The notes beneath the pieces are model-generated. The model was not told where the DNA came from. It saw nothing but the letters and a program-made list of their open reading frames with translations, and did no database searches. Position numbers and translations under genes: made by a program. A DNA stretch of 64,000 nucleotides from a virus, in the IMG/VR virus record IMGVR_UViG_3300009502_000025, positions 30,113 through 94,112 of that record; one strand, written 5' to 3'. This document shows positions 1,146-62,308 of this stretch, one piece after another (the stretch's first letter is position 1; every line of letters starts with the position of its first letter).

Positions 1146-2734
1146 CATTTTGACCATCCACACATACACGTGACACATCCCTCTTTATACATAAAGCCAT
1201 CTTTACTACCACAAGAGGGACATTCCATAGATGTCTTTACTTGCTCGCCGTTCTTGATGTATCCTTTAAGAACTCTCGCTAAGGATTTTGACCAGGAACC
1301 GAAACCATCGCTTTTACCTAGCTGTTCAACGATGAACTCGATAGGTGTTCCGTGCCTCAGAGCTGTACTCAGTAGACGCGTTGGTCCTTCGTACTCGTGA
1401 TTGAATGTTTGGGCAATATTCTCAATTACGACCTTATCTACTCCGTTAGGAATAATGAGGTCGTAATTGCCTTTGCCCTTCTTACGAATGATACCTGTGT
1501 CTTTATCCTTTAGATAACTCCATTCTTCTCTTTGTTCAGATATGAATGTCTCATATATGGATCCGCTGTACTTGCCGATTAGAGTTAGAAACTTTTGTCC
1601 CTTAATAGAAGTGACATAAATATCACACTCCAAGTCCTTAGGTCTTTTTGGCGCACCAGACCTCTCAATGTACTCAGGTCTCTTATAGCATACTTCTTTC
1701 TTCACTGGCTTAGTAGATAATATTCCCTTCATACTTCCCTGTGGATTAAATGAAGTGAATCCTTTTAAGCCTTGCTTATAAGCAAACATGAAAAGATCTT
1801 TATAGGCCTCCAAAGTATATCCTTCGGGTAGGTTAGCTGTCTTAGATATAGAGTGATCTATGTATTTTTGAAAAGCAGCCTGTACTCTTACCCCATCATA
1901 AGGATTCACTTCATTTGAAGTTATGAAGTACTCGGGAATTTTAGGTTCAAGCCCCGTCGATGTCATATGTGCTTTTGTATCATCGTAAGGGGTGTGAAGA
2001 TATTCTAGCCAGGCCTTATCATACACAGTTTCTTTACGAGTCTCGTCTCCTTTTCCCGTCCTGATAGTTCTATCATACTGGAGAGCAAAGATGGGCTCAA
2101 TACCTGAAGAGCAATTATTACCAACTGTCAATGAAATTGTTCCTGTTGGCGCACAAGTTAATATACCTATGTTCCTTAGACCACTTGCCCATATATCTTC
2201 ATATAATTCCTCGGGGAGTGAGGTAATAAAAGAAGACTGATTAAGTCTTTTATCAAATGCAGGAAAGGTACCCTTTTCTCTCGCTAACTCAGCAGATTCA
2301 CTGTATGCTTCGTCACGGAGTATTCTACCTATTCCGTCTGCAAGATCTATACTTTCTTGGCTACCGTATTTTATTTTCATCATGGCACAGACGTCACCAA
2401 AACCCGTGAAGCCTAGTCCTATCCGCCTCCACTGTTTGGAAAAATCTTCTATCCTCTTAAGAGGATATTTAGTTACATCTAAAACGTCATCAAGAAATCT
2501 AACTGCTGTGCGAATAGTTTTCGATAGAAGATCCTGATTAATCATCGGGGAATCTCCAAAAGCCCCTGTCACAAAGGAAGGTAGGTTTAAGGATCCTAGA
2601 CAGCATAAACTATATGCTGGCATCGAAATTTCGCCACAATTTTTAATAACAGTGCCATTTGCATAAAAATTATGAGTATTCTCCACTGTTATATCATATA
2701 CATCTTCGTTATCAGATGTTTCTATAATTAGCAT
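1142..2734 (-). CDS. nrdJ: Class II ribonucleotide reductase, C-terminal part with split C-intein
   Basis: The first 32 residues are a C-intein: block F (DVYDITVENTHNF) and block G ending VIKN, followed by Cys. The rest is the C-terminal RNR body, beginning CGEISMPAYSLCCLGSLN, with CAPTGTISL further on and a C-terminal Cys-rich tail (CPSCG, CVTCMCGWSKC) typical of adenosylcobalamin-dependent NrdJ. After trans-splicing with the product of the gene just upstream, the junction becomes N-P-C-G-E, the active-site motif whose Cys becomes the thiyl radical. The enzyme reduces ribonucleotides for phage DNA synthesis. AGGAG lies upstream of ATG 2734. No nrdB-like gene is visible, consistent with class II. 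Confidence 0.9.
   Translation of the reverse strand: MLIIETSDNEDVYDITVENTHNFYANGTVIKNCGEISMPAYSLCCLGSLNLPSFVTGAFGDSPMINQDLLSKTIRTAVRFLDDVLDVTKYPLKRIEDFSKQWRRIGLGFTGFGDVCAMMKIKYGSQESIDLADGIGRILRDEAYSESAELAREKGTFPAFDKRLNQSSFITSLPEELYEDIWASGLRNIGILTCAPTGTISLTVGNNCSSGIEPIFALQYDRTIRTGKGDETRKETVYDKAWLEYLHTPYDDTKAHMTSTGLEPKIPEYFITSNEVNPYDGVRVQAAFQKYIDHSISKTANLPEGYTLEAYKDLFMFAYKQGLKGFTSFNPQGSMKGILSTKPVKKEVCYKRPEYIERSGAPKRPKDLECDIYVTSIKGQKFLTLIGKYSGSIYETFISEQREEWSYLKDKDTGIIRKKGKGNYDLIIPNGVDKVVIENIAQTFNHEYEGPTRLLSTALRHGTPIEFIVEQLGKSDGFGSWSKSLARVLKGYIKNGEQVKTSMECPSCGSKDGFMYKEGCVTCMCGWSKC
2639..2734 (-). other. Split intein, C-terminal fragment (32 aa)
   Basis: Residues 1-32 of the downstream NrdJ half, ending in Asn directly before the catalytic Cys (+1) of the extein. 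The size and the DVYDITV / HNFYANG / VIKN layout match natural split C-inteins of the NrdA-2/NrdJ-1 type. Confidence 0.9.
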
Positions 2735-2761
2735 TTTTAAACGTCTCCTCTGTTAATTCCT

Positions 2762-3868
2762 CTAGTCATGGATTAACTCATCAGTTGGTTGAAGGTGCTG
2801 TGCTTCTACCCATCCTCTATTTTTTGTAAGTATTTTGTGATCCGGAGTACATTTGATCTGATTGCCAGTGGAGGTATCTGTTATCCTGATTATTTTCGTA
2901 TTTTTTCTAGTGAGAAGAGCATTTGTTACTTTTTGGTATTCAGTTTGACGAGTCTCTTCGTTGAGAGACTTCGCAAATACTTCTTCCCCAGAAACTACCA
3001 ATTCTACTAAGTCCTTCATTCTTATTTTTTGATTTACGCCCTTGAAAGAAATATCTACAACGGTATCTCCTGTTACGCAAGGATTGACCGAATCTATATT
3101 AAAGGCGTACCAGCCGTTGTTATACCTATTTACTGTATCAATATTAAAGATGCCTGGTTCATTGTGCTCGAAGGCATTCTTGGCCAGGAGATCATAAAGA
3201 TACTTAGCTTTAACTATTTTATAAACTTGCCCTTCCCAAACAAGAGGCCATTCACTATCTTCTTCTACAGCCCTGATAAATTCGTCTGTGAGAACTACAG
3301 AGAGGTTGAATTGGTCTAAAGCTTTTTTCTCGTCTCCGTGTTTTACTGTAATGAACTCTTCGATGTCAGGGTGATCTATGTTCATCAGAGCAATATGAGC
3401 AGATCGACGACCTCCTCCAGTCTGTATGACTTTTGCAGACTCGTTGAATATTTTAAGGAAAGAAATAGGCCCGGATGACTTGCCTCCCTTTTTAATAGCA
3501 GCATCTTTAGGTCTCAAGTACGAAATATTAAAGCCAACGCCTCCCCCTGAAGCACTGATCATGGCATCATCGTGGAGAGCTCCGAAAATGCCCTCCATGC
3601 TATCTCCAACAGCTATAGTATAACAATTATTATAGTACTTCATTTTAGAATCCGGACGAGCATTAGCTAGGATTCTTCCACCGGGGATAAATAAGCCTTT
3701 TTCCATAATGTCAAGAAATTCGTGTTCCCACTGAGCTCTTACTTTCGGTTTTTCAGCCATCGCTATTTCAGTCGCAACACCCCTAAATACATCCTCAGGG
3801 GTTTTTTCGCCGTTAATCATATACTTCTGGCGAAAGATTTCTTCGGAGATAGATTGAGAGAACATCAT
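2762..3868 (-). CDS. nrdJ: Class II ribonucleotide reductase, N-terminal part with split N-intein
   Basis: Residues 1-263 are the RNR N-terminal domain and the start of the barrel: FIPGGRILANA, NNCYTIAVGDSMEGIF, SGGGVGFNIS, GGGRRSAH, and a final NIDSVNP. Residue 264 is Cys1 of a 105-residue N-intein that runs to the stop. Block A is CVTGDTVVDI and block B is CTPDHKILTKNRGW. Only 27 bases separate this stop from the start of the C half, with no endonuclease gene between. A GGAAGG ribosome site precedes ATG 3868. The two halves must associate and trans-splice to give active enzyme. Confidence 0.92.
   Translation of the reverse strand: MMFSQSISEEIFRQKYMINGEKTPEDVFRGVATEIAMAEKPKVRAQWEHEFLDIMEKGLFIPGGRILANARPDSKMKYYNNCYTIAVGDSMEGIFGALHDDAMISASGGGVGFNISYLRPKDAAIKKGGKSSGPISFLKIFNESAKVIQTGGGRRSAHIALMNIDHPDIEEFITVKHGDEKKALDQFNLSVVLTDEFIRAVEEDSEWPLVWEGQVYKIVKAKYLYDLLAKNAFEHNEPGIFNIDTVNRYNNGWYAFNIDSVNPCVTGDTVVDISFKGVNQKIRMKDLVELVVSGEEVFAKSLNEETRQTEYQKVTNALLTRKNTKIIRITDTSTGNQIKCTPDHKILTKNRGWVEAQHLQPTDELIHD
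2765..3079 (-). other. Split intein, N-terminal fragment (105 aa)
   Basis: It begins at Cys 3077-3079, right after extein N-P, and ends TDELIHD. It contains block A and the TxxH-type block B (CTPDH). Length and break point match known split N-inteins. Confidence 0.92.
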
Positions 3869-7838: not shown

Positions 7839-8477
7839 ATGTCAATCAACGTGTGTTCCTATAAGATTACCGAGGCTGGTAGTCTTACGAATCCCGAGCC
7901 GGCTTCGTTTGCCGAGGTGTCCAAGCCCGACATGAGTCTCCGCAAGGGAATCACGGTTTACTTCGATACGAAGAAGTATACGGTTCTCGGTCAGGCGCCC
8001 ATCTACGCGCTTATCAGCGAGGCAGGGGAGGACGTGGCAATTCGAGTGCGCAAGAAGCACCTCTACGTCCCGAACGACGTTCTCAACGGCACCGCGATCG
8101 TGAAGATGGCGGCTCCTGCGAAAGTCAAGGTCGCCAAGGTCAAGGTCGAGAAGGCTCCTAAGGAGCCCAAGGCTCCGAAGGCGAAGAAGACACTCATTCC
8201 TGCTGTCGTGCAGGGTGCGTTCGAGACGCGCATGGCAGAGTTCCGTACCGACAGTGGTCGGAGCATCAAGGGCCTTCGCATCGAGAACACGGACGGTGCA
8301 TCCTTCCGCGTCATTGTCGTGGATCCTACTAAGTCTGGCTGGGTTCTCATGGCCTCAGATAAGTGGGACATTGGAGCCTACAAGTTCTACAACATCGATA
8401 CCATGGCGTCGAGAGATTTCGATCGCGCGGCCGATAAGCCGGGCCCTGGCGATTCCTCGATTGTGTGGCCGAAGTGA
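7839..8477 (+). CDS. Hypothetical protein with Lys/Pro/Ala linker
   Basis: 212 aa with AAAGGAGAG before ATG. An N-terminal domain (about 1-88, beta-rich) and a C-terminal domain (about 125-212) are joined by a repetitive Lys/Ala/Pro/Val linker (VKVAKVKVEKAPKEPKAPKA). Such linkers occur in nucleic-acid-binding or surface-display proteins, but no domain is recognised. GC-rich codon use is shared with its neighbours; a strong hairpin follows. Confidence 0.65.
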   Translation: MSINVCSYKITEAGSLTNPEPASFAEVSKPDMSLRKGITVYFDTKKYTVLGQAPIYALISEAGEDVAIRVRKKHLYVPNDVLNGTAIVKMAAPAKVKVAKVKVEKAPKEPKAPKAKKTLIPAVVQGAFETRMAEFRTDSGRSIKGLRIENTDGASFRVIVVDPTKSGWVLMASDKWDIGAYKFYNIDTMASRDFDRAADKPGPGDSSIVWPK

Positions 8478-8480
8478 AAT

Positions 8481-8505
8481 AGAGGGGGACCTTAGGTCCC
8501 CCTCT
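8481..8505 (+). terminator. Strong hairpin after the 7839 gene
   Basis: An 11-bp perfect stem (AGAGGGGGACC with GGTCCCCCTCT) and a TTA loop, three bases after the stop. There is no T run on either strand, so it could be a Rho-independent terminator of weak type or an mRNA-stabilising structure. Confidence 0.5.
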
Positions 8506-8522
8506 TAGGTGGAGAACATTAA

Positions 8523-8880
8523 ATGCGTAAGACGATTGACATTACGATGATGGACGGACAGGTGATCAAGGCTCCGCTGTGCCTGGTGTGGTGTGATATC
8601 AACGATACCCATACCGAACTCTATTTCGTATGGAAAACACCATATGGATGGATGCTTGTGTCTTAATGAAGACAGATATCCATCCCTATGGGACCACGCC
8701 GAGCCCATCGAGTTCCCGGACGTGTGGACGTTCGGCAAGGCGTGGGACGACGAACCAAATAATTTCGTATGGGGATATTTTAAGCTGGACGATAATGGCA
8801 ATTGGTTTCGCAAGAATAAGCGGGGTTCGTGGATCAACTTCACGCCCGGCCTCCCGCCCGCGACCATAGAGGGGGAATGA
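8523..8880 (+). pseudogene. Hypothetical protein gene split by an apparent frameshift
   Basis: From ATG 8523 the frame gives 47 residues (MRKTIDITMMDGQVIK ... TPYGWMLVS) and stops at 8664-8666. The next frame then continues as natural-looking protein (EDRYPSLWDHAEPIEFPDVW, then GKAWDDEPNNFVWGYFKLDD) to 8880. Joined near 8650-8665 they make a plausible protein of about 118 aa rich in Trp. The downstream part has no ribosome site of its own. It could be a real mutation, a sequencing indel, or two overlapping genes; family unknown. Confidence 0.45.
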
Positions 8881-9263
8881 TGGACAGGTACACCGAGACG
8901 GCGCGGAAGATAATTGGGATTATTGACTACAACCGTGACGAAGGAAGCTACACCGATCCATCAAAAGTAGCCGCCATCCTCCGCGAGGAGTTCCCCGAGC
9001 CCGCGCAGGACGCAATGGGTGTTGCTCGGCAGATAGCGCCTATATTTTGCTATCCTGTCGATTATCCCGGTATCGACGAAGCCGCCGCCCTCATCGAAGC
9101 CTACGCTCGCAAGCGCGTGGGGGGGGCGGCGGATAGGGCAGGGACATGGCTGAATACGCAATTCGGTGGTGGTGGGTTTGAAGATAATCCGGCAATCCAG
9201 CGGCTACGCAGCAGACAGCATATTTTCCTGCGCGCCGCGATCATCGGCAAGGAGGAAGTATGA
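8877..9263 (+). CDS. Hypothetical protein
   Basis: 128 aa starting at the ATG that overlaps the previous stop (ATGA) after AGAGGGGG. Helical, with PSKVAAILREEFP and a DEAAALIEAYARKR helix. The last 40 residues contain a Gly-rich turn (FGGGGFEDN) and a basic helix. Part of the GC-rich cassette; function unknown. Confidence 0.6.
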   Translation: MMDRYTETARKIIGIIDYNRDEGSYTDPSKVAAILREEFPEPAQDAMGVARQIAPIFCYPVDYPGIDEAAALIEAYARKRVGGAADRAGTWLNTQFGGGGFEDNPAIQRLRSRQHIFLRAAIIGKEEV

Positions 9264-9685
9264 CCAGGGATCAGATCGACAAGGTGCGCAATGCGATTGC
9301 ATACGGCAAATGTCTGTCGGAACGCGAAAATGGTGAGCGATGTACTGTTACAGAGCTTTTTACGGAGGCCCTCGCCCTCCTCGACGCTGAGGCCGCGCAG
9401 GACAACGTAGACCGACATGTCTACAAGCTGACTGTGCAGCAACGTGATCTTGCATGGACGCAACTCAGGACAGCCGAGGTTGTGGAACGAGAGCTTGAGG
9501 CAAGAATCAAGGATTGCGAGACCCGCGAGAAGGCGCTCAGGGAGGCGCTTGACAACGCGGCGGCACAAATCGAATCACTAGCGCTATCATTTCAAAGCCA
9601 CGGCATCATGGAGCATTACGACCGGGCTTTGAAATGCGCCTACGCTGCCCGTTCCGCCTTGCTCGGCCCAGGAGGCGAGGGATGA
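9260..9685 (+). CDS. Hypothetical coiled-coil protein
   Basis: 141 aa, ATGA overlap with the previous gene, AAGGAGG ribosome site. Residues about 60-110 form a long charged coiled coil (REKALREALDNAAAQIESLA), followed by an Ala-rich C-terminal helix. Similar helical proteins are common unknowns in accessory regions of phages. Last gene of the GC-rich cassette. Confidence 0.6.
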   Translation: MTRDQIDKVRNAIAYGKCLSERENGERCTVTELFTEALALLDAEAAQDNVDRHVYKLTVQQRDLAWTQLRTAEVVERELEARIKDCETREKALREALDNAAAQIESLALSFQSHGIMEHYDRALKCAYAARSALLGPGGEG

Positions 9686-9706
9686 TCAGATAGATACATA
9701 ACTTTC

Positions 9707-9738
9707 AAAAAGTCCTCTCTAAGAGAGGACTTTTTTTT
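9707..9738 (+). terminator. Rho-independent terminator closing the GC-rich cassette
   Basis: A long stem (AAAAGTCCTCTC with GAGAGGACTTTT), loop TAA, and eight T in a row. It separates the cassette from the primase region. Confidence 0.9.
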
Positions 9739-9823
9739 ATGCCCGTATAGCTCTCCAAAGCGCCTTAGGTCCTCTCGTTATAACTCAATTTTCCTAGTAA
9801 GAAGAGAGAATTTATGCCGTTAC

Positions 9824-9830
9824 ACTAATT
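9824..9830 (+). promoter_or_regulatory. ACTAATT motif upstream of the 9847 gene
   Basis: ACTAATTG, then AAGGAG, then ATG 9847: motif and ribosome site almost touch. Confidence 0.45.
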
Positions 9831-9846
9831 GATAAGGAGCCTCAGA

Positions 9847-10443
9847 ATGTATATCGATGAGTATCAACCTATGTCAGAAATGCACACATGGATGAAGGGA
9901 CGTGGAGTTGATGTAAATGTATACATATGCATTCAATCGGTGCTGAGTTTGGGAGACGAACGAAAAAAAGATCTTGACGTCTTTTTAAAAACATTCGGAG
10001 GACCATTCACTCTCCAGCATAATGGATCTTTTCATGAATACGATTGGAATATTTACACGAAGCCTAGCATAGGATACTATTACAATAAATACTTAGCCAG
10101 CGGCCCAGGGTATGATAATCCCGGAAAGCTTTACACTATAGATTTAAAAGATGGATCCTATGCATCAGAGCACACGCATGTTTTTATCAAAACAGCTTTA
10201 TATGAAGTTTTAAAAAGACATGAGGATCTTCATTGGTATATCGTCAATGATTTCATGGACTCAGACTCCGGACCCTCTAATTCTAAATTCAGAGGCCATG
10301 AAGTTCTATCGACGGAAGAAGTAAAACCGTTTCTTGAAGATGAGCTGGTCAAAGCGGTTGCGTCGTGGAAGATGAGCAAAGAGAATTATAATGAAGGTGG
10401 GGCCGGACAAATGCCAAGAATGATTAAGTTAGGCCTATTATGA
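9847..10443 (+). CDS. Hypothetical protein
   Basis: 198 aa from the ATG that follows AAGGAG by eight bases. A mixed alpha/beta sequence rich in Tyr and Trp in the middle (FHEYDWNIYTKPSIGYYYNK) with no recognised motif. It overlaps the next start by four bases (ATGA), so the pair is likely co-translated. The codon use returns to that of the main phage genome. Confidence 0.6.
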   Translation: MYIDEYQPMSEMHTWMKGRGVDVNVYICIQSVLSLGDERKKDLDVFLKTFGGPFTLQHNGSFHEYDWNIYTKPSIGYYYNKYLASGPGYDNPGKLYTIDLKDGSYASEHTHVFIKTALYEVLKRHEDLHWYIVNDFMDSDSGPSNSKFRGHEVLSTEEVKPFLEDELVKAVASWKMSKENYNEGGAGQMPRMIKLGLL

Positions 10444-10922
10444 TTGATGTAGATTTTCTATATGCAGTATTCCAGCCCTGCCCTCCTCGTAACATAGTAT
10501 GGTATTGGTTAGACCCTCAAAAACAAAGTTACAAACGAGTATCTAAAATTGATTCTTTCATAGAATTTGTTGAGAATAAAAATAGAAAAGTGCTACCTCA
10601 GATGAAGGAGGCCCTATGCACGTACTCTTTTTGGATGTGGAATCAAGTCGACAATAGGGTGATTTTATTACATCCTTCCGATGCACAAGACCGCACCTAT
10701 AGAGATCCGCTCGCCAGTTACTTTAAGAAGGGGCTAAAAGGGCAGGACCCCTTTGCACCAGAAGAGCAAGATCCTTTGAGTCACTTATATAAACTCGGCT
10801 TTCAGATGCCCAATGAAGATGATATTAAAAATCTCAGAGTCAGAATGACCCCTACAAAACAAAAATCTTTTTTGGCGCGCATAGGAAACATCTTACCAGG
10901 AAATACCTCGCGAAAAAAATAG
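10440..10922 (+). CDS. Hypothetical protein
   Basis: 160 aa. The N-terminal part is rich in aromatic residues (NIVWYWLDPQKQSYKR), the middle is acidic, and the C-terminus is basic (TPTKQKSFLARIG...SRKK). Directly upstream of the primase. No domain recognised. Confidence 0.6.
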   Translation: MIDVDFLYAVFQPCPPRNIVWYWLDPQKQSYKRVSKIDSFIEFVENKNRKVLPQMKEALCTYSFWMWNQVDNRVILLHPSDAQDRTYRDPLASYFKKGLKGQDPFAPEEQDPLSHLYKLGFQMPNEDDIKNLRVRMTPTKQKSFLARIGNILPGNTSRKK

Positions 10923-10923
10923 C

Positions 10924-10929
10924 TATATT
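10924..10929 (+). promoter_or_regulatory. TATATT box five bases before the primase start
   Basis: TATATTCTAGTATG: the start codon lies where transcription would begin, and there is no ribosome site. Confidence 0.5.
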
Positions 10930-10934
10930 CTAGT

Positions 10935-11915
10935 ATGAGGAATCATCCATATAGTACAGATCAAATAAAGTTAGCCCTGCGAAAACTCGGCGTCAAGTTT
11001 CCCTCGAGCATCGACTCTAAAGATAGAGCCATGGCTCATTGTCCTTTCCACTCTGACAGTACAGCTTCGATGTCTATCGATTTTACACGTGGAATCTTTC
11101 ACTGCTTCTCTTGTGACGCATCCGGCTCCATCAACACCTTATCTGAAAAAATGACAGGAAGAAAACTCGATGTTCTTCTAGGCGTCGATACTTCTTTCTC
11201 CATGTTTTCAGGTCATATAAAACAAGAGTACACCCCAAAACCAATTAATGAAGAAGATGTCACGATTGATGTGCGAGGCATCGTCGCTCCTTGGACCCAT
11301 GTGCCAGAAGCTATTGGGTATGTAAAATCTAGATTCATACCTCCAAGAATAGCAACGGCGATGCAAATGGGGTTCATCAAAGAAGCGTATGTGAATGGCA
11401 CGTACTATGAGGATCGCTTAGTGATTCCTATCTATGGAAAATCTGGCAAGCTTATCAATCTTGAAGGTAGGGACGTGACAGGAACTCATAAACTAAAGTG
11501 CTTATATCCTCACGGTATAACGAAGACAATCTATGAATGGTATAAGCTTGACAAAGAGAAGCCTTTATATGTCGTTGAGGGACTGACGAAGATGGCTTGT
11601 CTTCGCGGCGATGATTATTTTGCGAATTCGACCACTATCTTCGGGGCATCCGTAACCGCATATCAGATGGATTTACTTAGCGAATTTAAGAAGGTCGTGT
11701 TAATACCGGACAATGATGAGCCTGGAAAAAAGGTTATCGATACCTTTAAAAATAGATTAAGAACTAAATTCGATGTTATGAGAATACAGGATACAGCAGC
11801 AAAAGATATTGATGAGATTCCTCGTAAGCTTGGTCTCGGCGTCGAGGAATACAGAAAGAAGGGCGGATTTCTCATACAAGGTTTCACTTCTTTTCTTTTC
11901 GGGGAATTTGCCTGA
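10935..11915 (+). CDS. DNA primase, DnaG type
   Basis: 326 aa. A CHC2 zinc finger opens the protein (C36-PF-H39 and C57-FS-C60), which in DnaG binds template DNA. The RNA-polymerase/Toprim core follows, with VVEGLTKMACL (conserved Toprim Glu, about residue 214) and VVLIPDNDEPGKK (DxD motif, about 257-269). It makes RNA primers for lagging-strand synthesis, probably with the DnaB-type helicase at 53302. It is short compared with bacterial DnaG (about 580 aa) because the helicase-interaction domain is absent, as in many phage primases. Confidence 0.9.
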   Translation: MRNHPYSTDQIKLALRKLGVKFPSSIDSKDRAMAHCPFHSDSTASMSIDFTRGIFHCFSCDASGSINTLSEKMTGRKLDVLLGVDTSFSMFSGHIKQEYTPKPINEEDVTIDVRGIVAPWTHVPEAIGYVKSRFIPPRIATAMQMGFIKEAYVNGTYYEDRLVIPIYGKSGKLINLEGRDVTGTHKLKCLYPHGITKTIYEWYKLDKEKPLYVVEGLTKMACLRGDDYFANSTTIFGASVTAYQMDLLSEFKKVVLIPDNDEPGKKVIDTFKNRLRTKFDVMRIQDTAAKDIDEIPRKLGLGVEEYRKKGGFLIQGFTSFLFGEFA

Positions 11916-11921
11916 CTAATT
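11915..11921 (+). promoter_or_regulatory. ACTAATT motif upstream of the 11941 gene
   Basis: ACTAATTTAA overlaps the end of the primase stop region, followed by GAAGGAG and ATG 11941. Confidence 0.4.
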
Positions 11922-11940
11922 TAAATGAAGGAGATCAAAC

Positions 11941-12222
11941 ATGATCGAAGAGACTAAGATAGTCGAGCTCGTAGAGGTATTTGAGGACGCGTACGACAAA
12001 CAAGAATCTGCATCCGTCTTAACCAAGGAAGCAAGAGAGGAATTAAAAAGCTACGCAGAAAATAGTGAAATGGATCCTAAAGCCATTTCAGAGATTTATT
12101 CTACTTATGCAAAATGGAGGCGAGGTAAGTTTCACTGGGGTCCAGAAGGAGACGCAGACGACTTCACAGATATTCTTGTGGCCGTAATGGACAGAGTAAC
12201 TGGTGTAGATAAGGGAGTGTAA
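11941..12222 (+). CDS. Hypothetical small helical protein
   Basis: 93 aa with a GAAGGAG ribosome site. Acidic and helical, with 'A-EELKSYAE' then 'MDPKAISEIYSTYAKWRRG' and an acidic C-terminal helix. Length and helix layout recall the T4 DsbA double-stranded DNA-binding protein (89 aa), but the resemblance is only of pattern and I do not assign it. Confidence 0.55.
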   Translation: MIEETKIVELVEVFEDAYDKQESASVLTKEAREELKSYAENSEMDPKAISEIYSTYAKWRRGKFHWGPEGDADDFTDILVAVMDRVTGVDKGV

Positions 12223-12227
12223 CATAA

Positions 12228-12791
12228 ATGTTATGTGAAAAAATAGACTCGCAATCGTATATGGAGGATTTTAAAAAGAGGTTTGTAAACTTCGTAGAAA
12301 AATCTCCTGTTAAGCTAAGCATCATAATCACACCGACTGAAGTGCAAGTCATTGATGAGTATACACAACAAGGGCACGCGTTCACCTGGGACTTCTCAAT
12401 TCCGGTTAAGTCCTTTATTCACGGCATTAAGCAAATCCTAGTAGAAAGATGCTACCCGGTGATTCATAAGGTAGAACATATCGAGGTTCCTGTTTCTGAG
12501 AAGGAGCAGATTGAACTTGCAAGCAAGGGCTTGCCTCTCGATAATATTCCTACGCGAGTATACAAAAAGAGAGTAACGGAGTATCTCATAGACAAGGTAG
12601 TTATATACAAGGATATGTTTATTCTTGTGGACCGTGCAACAGGGCAATCCTATAGGTATAAATTAAATAAGAGCTCTGTGTTCTTCTTGAAGGATTTACG
12701 GAGTAAGAAGTTCAATAGGGAGACTGCAGGTGATTTCTTTTTTGCTAATGCAACTCTTATGAACGAGATTCACCAGAAAGAGAGTTTTTAG
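12228..12791 (+). CDS. Hypothetical protein
   Basis: 187 aa, beta-rich with several strands (KLSIIITPTEVQVIDEY; KVVIYKDMFILVDRATG). AAGGGAG lies about 10 bases before ATG 12228, inside the end of the previous gene; ATG 12261 is an alternative. It lies between the primase and the HNH-like gene. No recognised domain. Confidence 0.55.
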   Translation: MLCEKIDSQSYMEDFKKRFVNFVEKSPVKLSIIITPTEVQVIDEYTQQGHAFTWDFSIPVKSFIHGIKQILVERCYPVIHKVEHIEVPVSEKEQIELASKGLPLDNIPTRVYKKRVTEYLIDKVVIYKDMFILVDRATGQSYRYKLNKSSVFFLKDLRSKKFNRETAGDFFFANATLMNEIHQKESF

Positions 12792-28292: not shown

Positions 28293-30314
28293 ATGAGCTT
28301 ATTATACTCCGACTTAAAAGTCCCAACATCCGCCTACAATCTAGATACTCCTACCACCTTAACCATAAGTGGTACTACAGTATCCAGAGCCACTATGGCA
28401 GGCACTGTAGCTTCTACTCCCCCTTTAACAGGGCAACAAATACACGATAACTTTTTAGTTGTTGCCTATGGAGTCAAGGCCGTAGAAACTCGAGCCACTG
28501 CCTTGGAAGCTTTGGGGCAAGTAACAGGGGCGGCTGCAACTGGATATTTAAAGTATAATGGCTTAGTGGATCTCGATGGAGCTATGTTCGGGGGATCTCC
28601 TTGGTCAGTCACAGGTTCAGTCGCTATAACTGGGGGCGCTCTTACTGTAGCTTCTGCTTTAAGTACCCAAGTTCAAGTGAACGGAGGTACTGTACTTGCC
28701 ACCTTATACTTGCCTGCAGCTACGTACTCAAGTACGGCAAACTATATTTCTAGTATATGGCTCAAAGGATCCTCAGTAAGCGTGACGGACGCCAATACCT
28801 TTACGATGACAGGAACTGTAAACTTATCTGGCGTAACAAAGACGGCCGGCTGGACTTTTACTGTATCTGTGAACGGCGGCGTTGCTACTACAGTGACTGT
28901 TACACTTTCGTCAGGCAGTGGAGCTACTAATATTGCCTCGGATATTCAATCGGCTATCACCGCCGCAGGAGCTGGAGTTAGTTCCTATCTATCGTGCGCT
29001 GCTTCAACAAACTTTATTAAGTTTACCGGTGCTGGAGGGGCGTATACAGTATCTATAGCGGGTACTGGAACTATACAAACAGTTATCAATGGAATAGCCG
29101 GGCCTTGGAACCTCTGGGACTTATCCTCTAGAATAACATTCTCAAATCCCTCAGCGAATTATGTGGCGATAAGCGGTTATGCTACGGTATCCTCTAACTT
29201 CATATTCACCAAGCCTGGCTCTAATGATTTGATGACAGCAATAGGTACTGTGGCTGGAATGGGATTCGTAGGAAATGTCACGCCGACAATTTATCATACT
29301 GTGAGGCTTGTTTCCTCCTCCACGAATCTAAACTTCAAAGCTAACTTATACGCGCCTTCGATAACTACGAATACGCTAACAATATCTTCTTTGGCTATTA
29401 CAGGCGGTCTCGCAGTAACCGGAAACGTTGTAGTAACAGGCGCAATATCTGCTACAACGGATATATCCGCTTCAGGCAACGTAACTGTAGGAGCATCTGT
29501 TTCTACTACTACACAGGTAACAGGATTATTTAAAGTCAAGTACCCCGGTTTCAACAATATTATTTCTGCAGACGCTTCTGGAAACTTAATTGTCGTAGAT
29601 ATATACGCAGCAGCAACGTATGGTTCCTTTATTGTTCAGCCTGGTTACTGGGGAGCCTTACCTTCATTATCTGTAGACGCTGCCGGAACTTTGAATGTTG
29701 GAAGCATAGGTGGGGTACCTGCAATGACAGTAAATGGTGCTGGATTACTGAAGACTAAAAATATTCAAGTCTTATCAGCTACTCCCTTAGCGGGAACTTC
29801 TTGCTTATTTCTCGCCACATCATACGCTGGTGCGGGATGGGCCGGGAGCTCTGATATCTTAGGATACTCTGGAGGTATTAAAGCAAATACCTTAGCTTCT
29901 GTATCTAACGCAACCTTCGGGGGCGTAACTACTCTTGGCGGTGGTTTAGTAGCGGCTACTCTTGGCACAGCTACTACTGGCACGACTCTCATTGTTGACG
30001 GCTCAGGAAATATTAGACCAACAAGTTCTGATATTCGATTAAAGAAGAATATACAGCCTATCAATTATGGGCTGAAAGACTTATTAAATATCCGCGGAGT
30101 AACCTTTAATTGGAAAGATCCTACTGAAGGGCAGGAAACTTTAAGGAACTTGGGTTTTATTGCTCAGGAAGTTAGAGAGATATTCCCTGAAGTAGTATTC
30201 GGAGATGAAAGTAAAGAGATGCTTTCTATTAACGCTACTTACCTCATTCCCGTCATTGTCGAGGCAATAAAAACACTAAATAATAAGATTGAAGAGCTAA
30301 AAAGCCTTCAGTAA
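28293..30314 (+). CDS. Tail fibre protein with C-terminal S74 chaperone/peptidase
   Basis: 673 aa. A long Thr/Ser/Gly/Ala-rich shaft is followed by an intramolecular chaperone from about residue 575: SSDIRLKKNIQPINYGLKDL, then RNLGFIAQEVREIFPEVV and a coiled coil end. In S74 domains the Ser and the following Lys form the autocleavage dyad; both are present. The chaperone trimerises the fibre and is cut off during maturation. The N-terminus does not look like the other fibre, so the two attach differently. Confidence 0.85.
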   Translation: MSLLYSDLKVPTSAYNLDTPTTLTISGTTVSRATMAGTVASTPPLTGQQIHDNFLVVAYGVKAVETRATALEALGQVTGAAATGYLKYNGLVDLDGAMFGGSPWSVTGSVAITGGALTVASALSTQVQVNGGTVLATLYLPAATYSSTANYISSIWLKGSSVSVTDANTFTMTGTVNLSGVTKTAGWTFTVSVNGGVATTVTVTLSSGSGATNIASDIQSAITAAGAGVSSYLSCAASTNFIKFTGAGGAYTVSIAGTGTIQTVINGIAGPWNLWDLSSRITFSNPSANYVAISGYATVSSNFIFTKPGSNDLMTAIGTVAGMGFVGNVTPTIYHTVRLVSSSTNLNFKANLYAPSITTNTLTISSLAITGGLAVTGNVVVTGAISATTDISASGNVTVGASVSTTTQVTGLFKVKYPGFNNIISADASGNLIVVDIYAAATYGSFIVQPGYWGALPSLSVDAAGTLNVGSIGGVPAMTVNGAGLLKTKNIQVLSATPLAGTSCLFLATSYAGAGWAGSSDILGYSGGIKANTLASVSNATFGGVTTLGGGLVAATLGTATTGTTLIVDGSGNIRPTSSDIRLKKNIQPINYGLKDLLNIRGVTFNWKDPTEGQETLRNLGFIAQEVREIFPEVVFGDESKEMLSINATYLIPVIVEAIKTLNNKIEELKSLQ

Positions 30315-50028: not shown

Positions 50029-50044
50029 AAGAGAGGTGTCGACA

Positions 50045-51907
50045 ATGGAGTTGAATGTAGCTGAGATGTTCGGTCCCGTGCTTCAGGGAGAAGGCAAGTC
50101 TCTCGGCGAGCCAGCTTTCTTTCTGAGGCTATCGAATTGTAATCTTATGTCCATAGGGTATAATCGAGGAATTTCTCAGCCAAAGATATGGATGAATAAA
50201 GGTGGAGAGAAAAATATACAAGATGTAAAGCCTGATGATGTAATCTGGGCCACAAATGAAAACGGAAATCTCGTTGAAACAAAAGTTCTATCAGTATTCG
50301 AATACGACATCAAAGATAGAGTTGAGCTAATAGTCGAAGGGATAGATCACCCTGTTTACTGCTCAGGGGAGCACCCCTGGCTAACAAATCAAGGGTGGAA
50401 GAGAGCTGACGAGCTTCTTAAAGACGATGAAATAATGCATTTTTCTAAGAAGCAGATTCAATCAGAAAGAATGAAAAAGTATAACCCTATTCATGATCCA
50501 GATACTATGAAAAGACATATTGAAAATACGAACTGGACAACTCAGGGAGAAAAAATTAAAGGTGATATTCAAAGAAGGAAAGCTGCAGACACTTATGTAG
50601 ACGCCGTTACTTCCATGAGACGCAATAATCCAGAAAAGTATGCAGAGATGAATAAAAATACCTCAGTAAGAATGACAACTAATAATCCAATGTTTAATCA
50701 GGAAGTAGTTAAAAAAAGTAGAGGGACCCACCAGAATATAAATCAATATTACCCCTTTATGTCCAAATCAGAGAAAGATTTTTCTAATATTGCTATGAAA
50801 ATGGGGCTGCCAGTTAAGTATATTGGAAGATTTGATCTTCAGATTAAACACAAGAGTAAAACATACTACCCTGATTTTATAATTGAGGGGACAAATAGAC
50901 TTCTGGAAATATACTACTCAAAAGGGAAATTATATTCTCACAGGAATGAACAGTGGAAAAAAGAAAGGCTGGAGGCCTTCGAGGCTAATGGCTATTCCTG
51001 CACGTTTGTAAATTGTTCCGAGAGCAATATTAATGATATTAAAGATTTAATATCCACCGAAATAAAAATGCAGAACGGGGTAAAGATTATATCTGTAACA
51101 AAAGTTAATCAATTTAAAACCCATTATGAGGGAGAAAAATCGTTATCTAATTCCGATACCCAGTTCAATATTACCACTAAGCCGATGAGAGCAATTGATA
51201 TTATGTGTTACCCTTATCATAATTTCATAGTTGATGGAATGGTTACGCATAATTGCGGCGGTCATAACGGTGAGAAAGTTCGCGATGGGTCCGCTACTTG
51301 GTGGTGTGACTCTGAAAAGATTTGGCGAGAAAGTAAATCGTATACTCCTGGTGAAATTATTGAATATATTAAGGACGCGGGTGAGCTTGATAATATTAGA
51401 TCTGGATCTACTCACTTAGTTATTACTGGCGGCGAGCCTCTCTTACGCAGGAATATCGATCCGCTAAAACTACTTATTGAAATGCTGAGGTATGATAATC
51501 TCGCAGATCAGACATTCTATCCTTATATTGAGGTTGAGACGAACGGCACTTGCTCAACAGAAGACTTCTTGGATACGTATGTTGATCAGGTTAATTGTAG
51601 CCCTAAACTAGCTAATAGTGGTGTGCCTCGAGAGCAAAGAATTAAGCAGGATGCTATTGAGGAGATAAAGAATCATCTTAACTCTTGGTTCAAATTCGTT
51701 GTTAGCAAACCTGAAGATTGGAATGAGATCGAGAAAGATTTCTTGCCACTTATATTTAAGGATCAGATCATACTGATGCCTGCGGGAGCATCTCGCGAGG
51801 ATCTTTTAGTTACGAGTCCTATTGTATGGGAGATGGCTTGCAAGCATAACGTCAAGGCTACAACAAGACTGCAGACCATAACTTGGGATAAGAGAGTTGG
51901 CGTATGA
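50045..51907 (+). CDS. queE: QueE-like radical SAM enzyme (7-carboxy-7-deazaguanine synthase) interrupted by an intein
   Basis: The host protein parts are residues 1-35 (NVAEMFGPVLQGEGKSLGEP; FLRLSNCNLM) and 404-end (CGGHNG...WWCDSE; VITGGEPLL; VETNGT; CSPKL; TTRLQTITWD). Joined they restore CNLMCGG...WWC, the iron-sulphur Cys set of QueE. Between them is a 368-residue intein with a nuclease domain. QueE makes CDG from carboxy-tetrahydropterin for queuosine or phage 7-deazaguanine DNA modification. ATG 50045 follows GAGAGGTG. No other genes of the pathway are in the window. ATGA overlap with the next gene. Confidence 0.85.
   Translation: MELNVAEMFGPVLQGEGKSLGEPAFFLRLSNCNLMSIGYNRGISQPKIWMNKGGEKNIQDVKPDDVIWATNENGNLVETKVLSVFEYDIKDRVELIVEGIDHPVYCSGEHPWLTNQGWKRADELLKDDEIMHFSKKQIQSERMKKYNPIHDPDTMKRHIENTNWTTQGEKIKGDIQRRKAADTYVDAVTSMRRNNPEKYAEMNKNTSVRMTTNNPMFNQEVVKKSRGTHQNINQYYPFMSKSEKDFSNIAMKMGLPVKYIGRFDLQIKHKSKTYYPDFIIEGTNRLLEIYYSKGKLYSHRNEQWKKERLEAFEANGYSCTFVNCSESNINDIKDLISTEIKMQNGVKIISVTKVNQFKTHYEGEKSLSNSDTQFNITTKPMRAIDIMCYPYHNFIVDGMVTHNCGGHNGEKVRDGSATWWCDSEKIWRESKSYTPGEIIEYIKDAGELDNIRSGSTHLVITGGEPLLRRNIDPLKLLIEMLRYDNLADQTFYPYIEVETNGTCSTEDFLDTYVDQVNCSPKLANSGVPREQRIKQDAIEEIKNHLNSWFKFVVSKPEDWNEIEKDFLPLIFKDQIILMPAGASREDLLVTSPIVWEMACKHNVKATTRLQTITWDKRVGV
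50150..51253 (+). mobile_element. Intein with Vsr-like (PD-(D/E)xK / EDxHD-type) endonuclease domain
   Basis: 368 codons from Ser (50150) to Asn (51251-51253), followed by extein Cys. N-terminal splicing block B is GEHPWLTNQGWKRADEL; C-terminal blocks are DIMCYPYHNFIVDG and VTHN. The middle (about intein residues 200-300) reads MSKSEKDFSNIAMKMGLPV, then YYPDFIIEGTNRLLEIYYSK and a long basic helix ending GYSCTFVN: the strand-rich PD...E layout of Vsr-like homing nucleases. It uses Ser1, not Cys1. Probably able to splice; activity cannot be judged from sequence. Confidence 0.8.
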
Positions 51908-61060: not shown

Positions 61061-62308
61061 ATGAGCGGAACGATACATAGAGCATTGAAAATAAGACTCT
61101 ATCCCAATAGAATACAAGAGACTCAAATACTGAAGACGCTCGGTTCTTGTCGTTTCCTCTATAATCAAATGCTCGCTGAGAGGATCAAAACCTATGATGA
61201 ATGGAAAGCCTCTGGCGAAGATGTAAGAAAACTCTATGAATATCAATATAAGACAGAAAAGCAATATAAGCAAGAATTTGAATGGCTTTCTGAACCCGAT
61301 TCAATCAGCCTCCAACAATCTCGAATCGATCTCTCAATGGCTTATCAGAACTTCTTCAAATCTCAATCGGGTAAAAGAAAAGGAAAATCAGGATTTCCAA
61401 AGTTCCATAAACGAGGTCAAAAAGACTCATATCGAACTCTCAATCTTGGAACCAACATAGCAATCAACTACGACACTCGAAAAGTGAGACTACCTAAACT
61501 TGGTTGGATTACTTTTCGTGACCTTCGCTGTAATACACAAGGAGCAATCAAACAAGCTACTGTAAGTCGTAGCAAAACAGGAAAATACTTTGTATCTATT
61601 CTATTTGAGCAAGAACTCGAATTAGAAGGAGTTGAAATCAATCAGGATCTGAAAACCAAGGGTCTTGATATGAGCTTAGCGAACTTCTATGTAGATGATG
61701 AAGGAAATTCTCCTGCATACGAACGTATCTACCGCAAAAATGAACCACGGTTGAAGTGGTTGCAAAAACAAGTCAGTAAGAAGCAGAAAGGTTCAAACAA
61801 CCGAAAGAAAGCTCAATTAAGGGTGAACCAAGTATTTGAGAGAATTACGAATTCCAGGAAGGATTTCTCTCAGAAACTATCTACAAAACTCATTCAAGAA
61901 AATGATGTAATTGTAGTTGAAACTCTTAATTTAAGAGCAATGGCTCAGTGTTTGAAACTTGGCAAATCGATCAACGACCTTGGTTATGGTGAATTCCTAA
62001 GACAGCTTCAATACAAGAGCCTTTGGAATAATAAGACCTTGATTGAAGCCGATAAATGGTTTGCCTCTTCTAAAACCTGTTCAAGATGCGGATACGTTCA
62101 CAAACAACTACAGCTGGATGATCGAATTTTCAATTGTCCGAGCTGTGGCTTCGAGATTGATCGAGACCAGAATGCAGGAATCAATCTCAAAAATTATGGT
62201 CTAAAAGAATTAGGGCTGGGACAGCCCGAAATTAAGTCTGTGGAGACATCGATGCACAAGGTCGAGTCTGTGAAGCAGGAAGCCCTGAAATCTTTAGTTT
62301 CAGGGTAG
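61061..62308 (+). CDS. tnpB: TnpB RNA-guided endonuclease (IS605 family)
   Basis: 415 aa, full length. N-terminal RALKIRLYPNRIQETQIL and GSCRFLYNQML; RuvC-like catalytic residues: D in KGLDMSLANF (about 211), E in DVIVVETLNL (about 288), D in IDRDQNAGINL (about 370). A zinc ribbon lies between (CSRCGYVH ... CPSCGFEI). Active TnpB proteins cut DNA guided by an omega RNA encoded at the 3' end of the element. All visible catalytic residues are intact. The right-end hairpin forms part of the last codons. Confidence 0.92.
   Translation: MSGTIHRALKIRLYPNRIQETQILKTLGSCRFLYNQMLAERIKTYDEWKASGEDVRKLYEYQYKTEKQYKQEFEWLSEPDSISLQQSRIDLSMAYQNFFKSQSGKRKGKSGFPKFHKRGQKDSYRTLNLGTNIAINYDTRKVRLPKLGWITFRDLRCNTQGAIKQATVSRSKTGKYFVSILFEQELELEGVEINQDLKTKGLDMSLANFYVDDEGNSPAYERIYRKNEPRLKWLQKQVSKKQKGSNNRKKAQLRVNQVFERITNSRKDFSQKLSTKLIQENDVIVVETLNLRAMAQCLKLGKSINDLGYGEFLRQLQYKSLWNNKTLIEADKWFASSKTCSRCGYVHKQLQLDDRIFNCPSCGFEIDRDQNAGINLKNYGLKELGLGQPEIKSVETSMHKVESVKQEALKSLVSG
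62283..62305 (+). repeat. Right-end hairpin of the insertion sequence
   Basis: CCCTGAAA-TCTTTAG-TTTCAGGG, overlapping the last codons of tnpB. The omega RNA would end here and its guide would be read from the bases just beyond about 62309. Confidence 0.75.

Follow-up and report, generated by a model that had tools for sequence, protein, structure and literature searches.

A gene for QueE in a tailed phage is interrupted, in frame, by 368 residues. The insert raises three questions: what kind of element it is, which nuclease it carries, and whether that nuclease could still drive homing. Here, we analyze the insert in its 64,000-nucleotide window, the whole stretch of DNA under study (positions 30113 to 94112 of the 94,112-bp virus record IMGVR_UViG_3300009502_000025). 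It is very probably a class 1 cis-splicing intein (Ser1, Cys+1) with a nested homing-type nuclease of a phage family marked by E/YYPDF/E[IV]K, and most likely a homing intein that is active or recently decayed.

Virus and genome setting

A second IMG/VR assembly (170,592 bp) matches 7,042 bp around the QueE intein at 100%. Both ends of this assembly have a 127-bp direct repeat in common, which suggests that the viral genome is a circle of about 170.5 kb. From the baseplate, tail, and capsid proteins that it encodes, the virus is a tailed phage; no isolate in the phage collection is close to it, with capsids about 22 to 25% identical. Besides QueE, the virus encodes QueC and QueD, so that QueE sits in a plausible pathway, one of base modification; a GTP cyclohydrolase was searched for in the virus and not found. 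The window also holds a TnpB-type RNA-guided nuclease gene (61061 to 62308, plus strand), matched by NF038281 with 350 bits (below cut-off) and by guided_TnpB NF040570 with 284 bits (above cut-off).

QueE gene and intein junction

The open reading frame at 50036 to 51907 (plus strand, 623 amino acids) runs stop-free through QueE and the insert, with a likely ATG start at 50045 and a GTG at 50036 as the alternative. Its parts are as follows:

50045 to 50149, plus strand: QueE N-extein, with the first radical SAM Cys in CNLM; placed by alignment to intein-free QueE
50150 to 51253, plus strand: intein, 368 amino acids, Ser1 to His367-Asn368, followed by Cys
51254 to 51907, plus strand: QueE C-extein, beginning with Cys+1, a residue that doubles as second Cys of CNLMC

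The intein lies exactly at CNLM/C, within the radical SAM Cys set. When the exteins are joined (...FLRLSNCNLM/CGGHNG...), the junction aligns without a gap to QueE of HCTV-1, HVTV-1, and Cellulophaga and Chryseobacterium phages, the intein-free references being drawn from haloviruses and Bacteroidota phages. Removal of the in-frame insert thus restores a conserved QueE, as it does for an intein. In an alignment scan of 80 viral QueE loci, read from match spans, the insert was absent from 79, with this virus as the sole exception. The intein has a GC content of 35%, against 42% for the QueE C-extein, which is consistent with a later arrival of the intein, though not proof of it. The intein is known from one virus population, and homing is not readable from allele comparison because the nearest intein-free QueE relative has only about 46% identity. 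A full-text literature search found no paper combining an intein with QueE. In HCTV-1 and HCTV-16 (loci L004 and L006), HNH endonuclease genes adjoin the intein-free queE, on its upstream side in one virus and on its downstream side in the other.

As Cys+1 doubles as a Cys of the radical SAM motif, the intein might have been domesticated, with splicing regulating QueE (for example, via Cys+1 as a cluster ligand) in place of homing. We regard this as highly improbable, since no sign of regulation was seen and insertion at active-site motifs is usual for inteins (PMC7765530). In a homing intein, the reading that we prefer, splicing would join CNLM to Cys+1 and so rebuild the radical SAM Cys motif, and the element would be protected from loss because unspliced QueE should be inactive.

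Hint domain and linker

Within the intein, four parts were delimited:

50150 to 50440, plus strand: Hint N-terminal part, with Ser1 and SxxH (Ser72, His75); Hint matches
50441 to 50749, plus strand: linker, helices in the AF2 model, with NUMOD-like motifs NPIHDPDTMK and NPMFNQEVVKKS
50750 to 51073, plus strand: PD-(D/E)xK nuclease domain, residues 201 to 308; profile score of 43.8 bits, AF2 fold, and structure matches
51083 to 51253, plus strand: Hint C-terminal part, with Asp350, His357, and His367-Asn368

The intein was matched by PF14890 (E = 6.1e-7, residues 15 to 368; 29.8 bits, below the curated cut-off of 35.8), by NF038136 (intein-containing radical SAM; E = 3.3e-10), and by DnaB and RecA inteins of known structure (E = 5e-4 to 7e-3). 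These Hint matches and the gap-free extein junction bear out an earlier note, made from the DNA alone, which had described an intein that starts with Ser and splits QueE within its radical SAM Cys set. By sequence and alignment, the class 1 Hint blocks are all in place: Ser1, S72xxH75 (Ser for Thr), D350, H357, H367-N368, and Cys+1. A class 3 intein was considered, Trp77, Cys354, and Thr366 being present, and was rejected because the F-block position is Asp350, which argues for class 1. In the full-length AF2 model, the Hint N-terminal part was modeled and the C-terminal part was left unplaced (pLDDT below 50); Foldseek gave weak matches to domains of the BIL, hedgehog, and intein types.

An intein in a deoxyhypusine synthase-like gene of a Nealsonbacteria metagenome-assembled genome (JACQQI010000007.1; L363 1102-3321) resembles the QueE intein in its Hint match (E = 3e-10) and its Hint C end, D-[FI]-MCYPYHNF (DFMCYPYHNF in Nealsonbacteria), but differs from it in an apparent HNH domain and a Cys start, both read from the sequence. 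The inteins of phage G, phi673, and Vibrio 103E44.1 were rejected as full-length relatives, having only the Hint part in common with it.

The linker is presumed to act as a DNA-binding arm. Its motif NPMFNQEVVKKS resembles a NUMOD repeat, a resemblance without statistical support (6.0 bits for the best domain, against as much as 11.6 for shuffles).

Sequence family of the nuclease domain

LAGLIDADG is the commonest nuclease of inteins (PMC7765530). PD-(D/E)xK and EDxHD, though alike in their active sites, are described as distinct homing families (PMC3943268). Searched as a single sequence against family libraries, the middle domain matched only DUF7487 in Pfam (E = 0.073) and nothing in PHROGs, and among annotated phages its matches were only chance-like. 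One match, in an Erwinia phage, is part of a longer protein and was dismissed as unrelated.

The DNA pattern YYPDF-x8-hydrophobic-E-[IV] was found in at least 120 viral stretches. Nearly all of the stretches that were read code for proteins of a single type, in which an upstream part, often with zinc-finger or NUMOD-like repeats, is followed by E...YYPDF...E[IV]K. A profile of 84 such viral sequences scored 43.8 bits against the intein domain. Because the motif used to gather this family had been taken from the QueE intein itself, a motif-preserving shuffle control was run, in which 2,000 shuffles gave a mean of 13.0 (standard deviation, 5.0) and a maximum of 32.9. An EDxHD profile of 108 viral proteins, with the signature LDIYxP...IExNGxYWH, by comparison gave the intein domain 0.8 bits, the level of shuffles (mean, 1.2), versus 157 for the virus's own free-standing EDxHD-type enzyme. 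In the EDxHD family, GxYWH occurs in 108 of 108 proteins, though the search pattern included it; the intein domain lacks this motif in register. The contrast between 43.8 and 0.8 bits places the domain in the E/YYPDF/E[IV]K family.

Run against solved structures, the E/YYPDF/E[IV]K profile matched T7 endonuclease I (E = 5.5e-8) and I-Bth0305I (E = 4.5e-4). Judged by sequence, then, the intein domain belongs to a large phage family that has T7 endonuclease I as a relative and a weaker relationship to I-Bth0305I. T7 endonuclease I, the best of these matches, aligns at E, PDF, and E; unlike the QueE intein, it is a junction resolvase, not a homing enzyme, and has its ExK (ETK).

The free-standing EDxHD-type endonuclease of the virus has 566 amino acids, with zinc-finger and DUF7487 repeats (G001:C1 37164-38864, minus strand; L110:7165-8865). 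It was rejected as a relative of the intein domain, there being no BLAST relation and no profile match.

Predicted fold of the nuclease domain

An AF2 model of the domain, built with 66 aligned sequences, has the order helix-strand-strand-strand-strand-helix-strand-helix (mean pLDDT, 76); over model residues 41 to 150, the means of 10-residue blocks are 79 to 93, with one block at 61. The alpha-beta-beta-beta-alpha-beta core of PD-(D/E)xK enzymes is present in this predicted model. In structural comparison, the closest solved folds were I-Bth0305I (3r3p; Z = 10.4 over 96 residues), a DUF559-like protein (3hrl; Z = 9.4), and Vsr (1cw0; Z = 8.4), and most other members of the PD-(D/E)xK superfamily gave Z scores of 6 to 7. 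Foldseek with the domain model yielded no match below 1e-3 in the PDB; against viral models, the matches listed include DUF559, TnsA-N, Vsr-like, and homing endonucleases.

The profile score and the predicted fold agree with the earlier note in making the middle domain a nuclease of PD-(D/E)xK type and not LAGLIDADG. That note had also called it Vsr-like or EDxHD. Given the nearest structures, "Vsr-like" is fair as a statement about the fold; membership in the EDxHD sequence family did not hold up.

It is correspondingly improbable that the domain is a genuine homing nuclease of the EDxHD (Vsr) type in which 4 extra residues precede LYSH, a motif to be compared with LYWH. This reading would fit the closest solved fold, that of the EDxHD enzyme I-Bth0305I, as well as the likeness of LYSH to LYWH and the residue other than Lys at Glu+2, but the profile score at the level of shuffles and the out-of-register GxYWH speak against it. 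I-Bth0305I itself differs from the intein domain: it is named "Mobile intron protein" in the PDB and is not intein encoded, and its active site is an EDxHD site in which Asn stands at Glu+2, accompanied by GxYW.

Active site

We return to the intein domain as a diverged nuclease of the E/YYPDF/E[IV]K family, in which four positions stand out:

50771 to 50773, plus strand: Glu208, invariant in the family (84 of 84), at a position not in the search pattern
50873 to 50875, plus strand: Asp242 of YYPDF, in the search pattern and therefore invariant by selection
50906 to 50914, plus strand: Glu253-Ile254-Tyr255, with Tyr in place of the (D/E)xK lysine found in 78 of 84 family members
50966 to 50968, plus strand: Arg273, a conserved basic position (K or R in 84 of 84)

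The conserved acidic residues, Glu208, Asp242, and Glu253, are thus all kept. The canonical PD...(D/E)xK site, in contrast, is incomplete: PD and E remain, and Lys is replaced by Tyr255. By profile and fold, the domain is therefore a diverged relative rather than a canonical member, and its cleavage activity is uncertain and cannot be assumed. (D/E)xK is broken in both registers (E253-I-Y255 and Y256-S-K258); Lys258 reaches the lysine column only via a 3-residue gap, and in the few relatives with Lys at +5, position +3 is occupied by Glu, as against Tyr in the QueE intein.

In the homing intein that we favor, the nuclease would cut intein-free queE, and repair would then copy the intein in. 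With Tyr for Lys, the domain may have become less active, may rely on another residue in place of the lysine (Lys258, His264, or Arg273), or may have died recently. The last of these points to a rival that we rate as a serious possibility, though somewhat short of even: a catalytically dead nuclease whose lysine was lost after fixation and whose domain is kept solely as a structural brace for the Hint halves. The absence of (D/E)xK in either register favors it, as does a pattern scan of the viral collection in which E[IV]Y[YF] was found only in this virus; decay of intein nucleases after fixation is, moreover, expected (PMC6801210). Against it, Glu208, Asp242, Glu253, and Arg273 are kept and the frame is intact. 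Nor does loss of the Lys prove inactivity, because I-Bth0305I likewise has Asn, not Lys, at Glu+2, and the literature nevertheless describes this enzyme as a homing endonuclease (PMC3943268). Tyr at the position of the catalytic lysine makes the QueE intein a test case for decay versus rewiring of a nuclease site.

Relation to fractured phage genes

Split forms with the same type of nuclease were found in UvsX and UvsW. In IMGVR_UViG_3300035698_007621 (L121), the recombinase gene UvsX is split over two open reading frames (462-1394 and 1459-3402), of which the first ends in IntN and the second encodes NUMOD-like repeats, a nuclease of the same family with its EVK intact, an in-frame IntC, and the C-extein. 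The nuclease stands beside IntC, as in the QueE intein; the UvsX intein differs in being split between IntN and the nuclease, in its intact EVK, in its clear NUMOD-like repeats, and in its host gene.

In Straboviridae (Proteus phage PM2 and Salmonella phage SEA1), a fractured UvsW consists of helicase-IntN, a 292-amino-acid "hypothetical protein," and IntC-helicase:

NC_055727.1 101056-103788 and OQ927978.1 108953-111682: fractured UvsW loci, each with an IntN frame, a frame for NUMOD3-like and nuclease parts (E-I-R), and an IntC frame

The middle frames of PM2 and SEA1 score 37.5 and 30.6 bits with the E/YYPDF/E[IV]K profile and about 1 or less with the EDxHD profile, and the SEA1 IntN aligns to the Hint N-terminal part of the QueE intein (BLAST E = 1.8e-8). 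Nuclease family and Hint N-terminal part are thus alike, whereas UvsW has a split intein with a separate nuclease frame and E-I-R, and QueE has one chain and E-I-Y. The proposed link to fractured phage genes was well founded, as the free frame in Straboviridae UvsW encodes a nuclease of the same family. With nuclease and Hint of the same types in split UvsX and UvsW, the QueE intein is, on sequence comparison, the contiguous counterpart of the modules in fractured genes.

A stronger version, in which a contiguous intein with a T7-endonuclease-I/I-Bth0305I-like nuclease working via E-I-Y was the unsplit source of the IntN, nuclease, and IntC modules by stop-start separation, appears doubtful to us. 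What the counterpart adds is a nuclease type seen mainly as a free phage protein, here nested in a contiguous intein with QueE as host gene. Now that a single type of module is at hand in one-piece, IntC-fused, and fully separated versions, the origin of fractured genes is directly testable.

Other inteins in the same virus

A split intein lacking a nuclease had been reported for this genome and was confirmed in an RNR-like gene:

2639 to 3079, minus strand: split intein without nuclease, with IntN at 3079-2765, an in-frame stop, and IntC from ATG 2734 to 2639

The suggestion that the QueE nuclease might act in trans on other alleles found no support; the gene that hosts the split intein, for RNR, is an unrelated one. 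Outside the window, the frame for the terminase large subunit (1,413 amino acids; G000:C1, about 8100-12340, minus strand; L356) contains two apparent LAGLIDADG inteins, which are without the usual first nucleophile and have Trp, Cys, and Thr positions suggestive of class 3.
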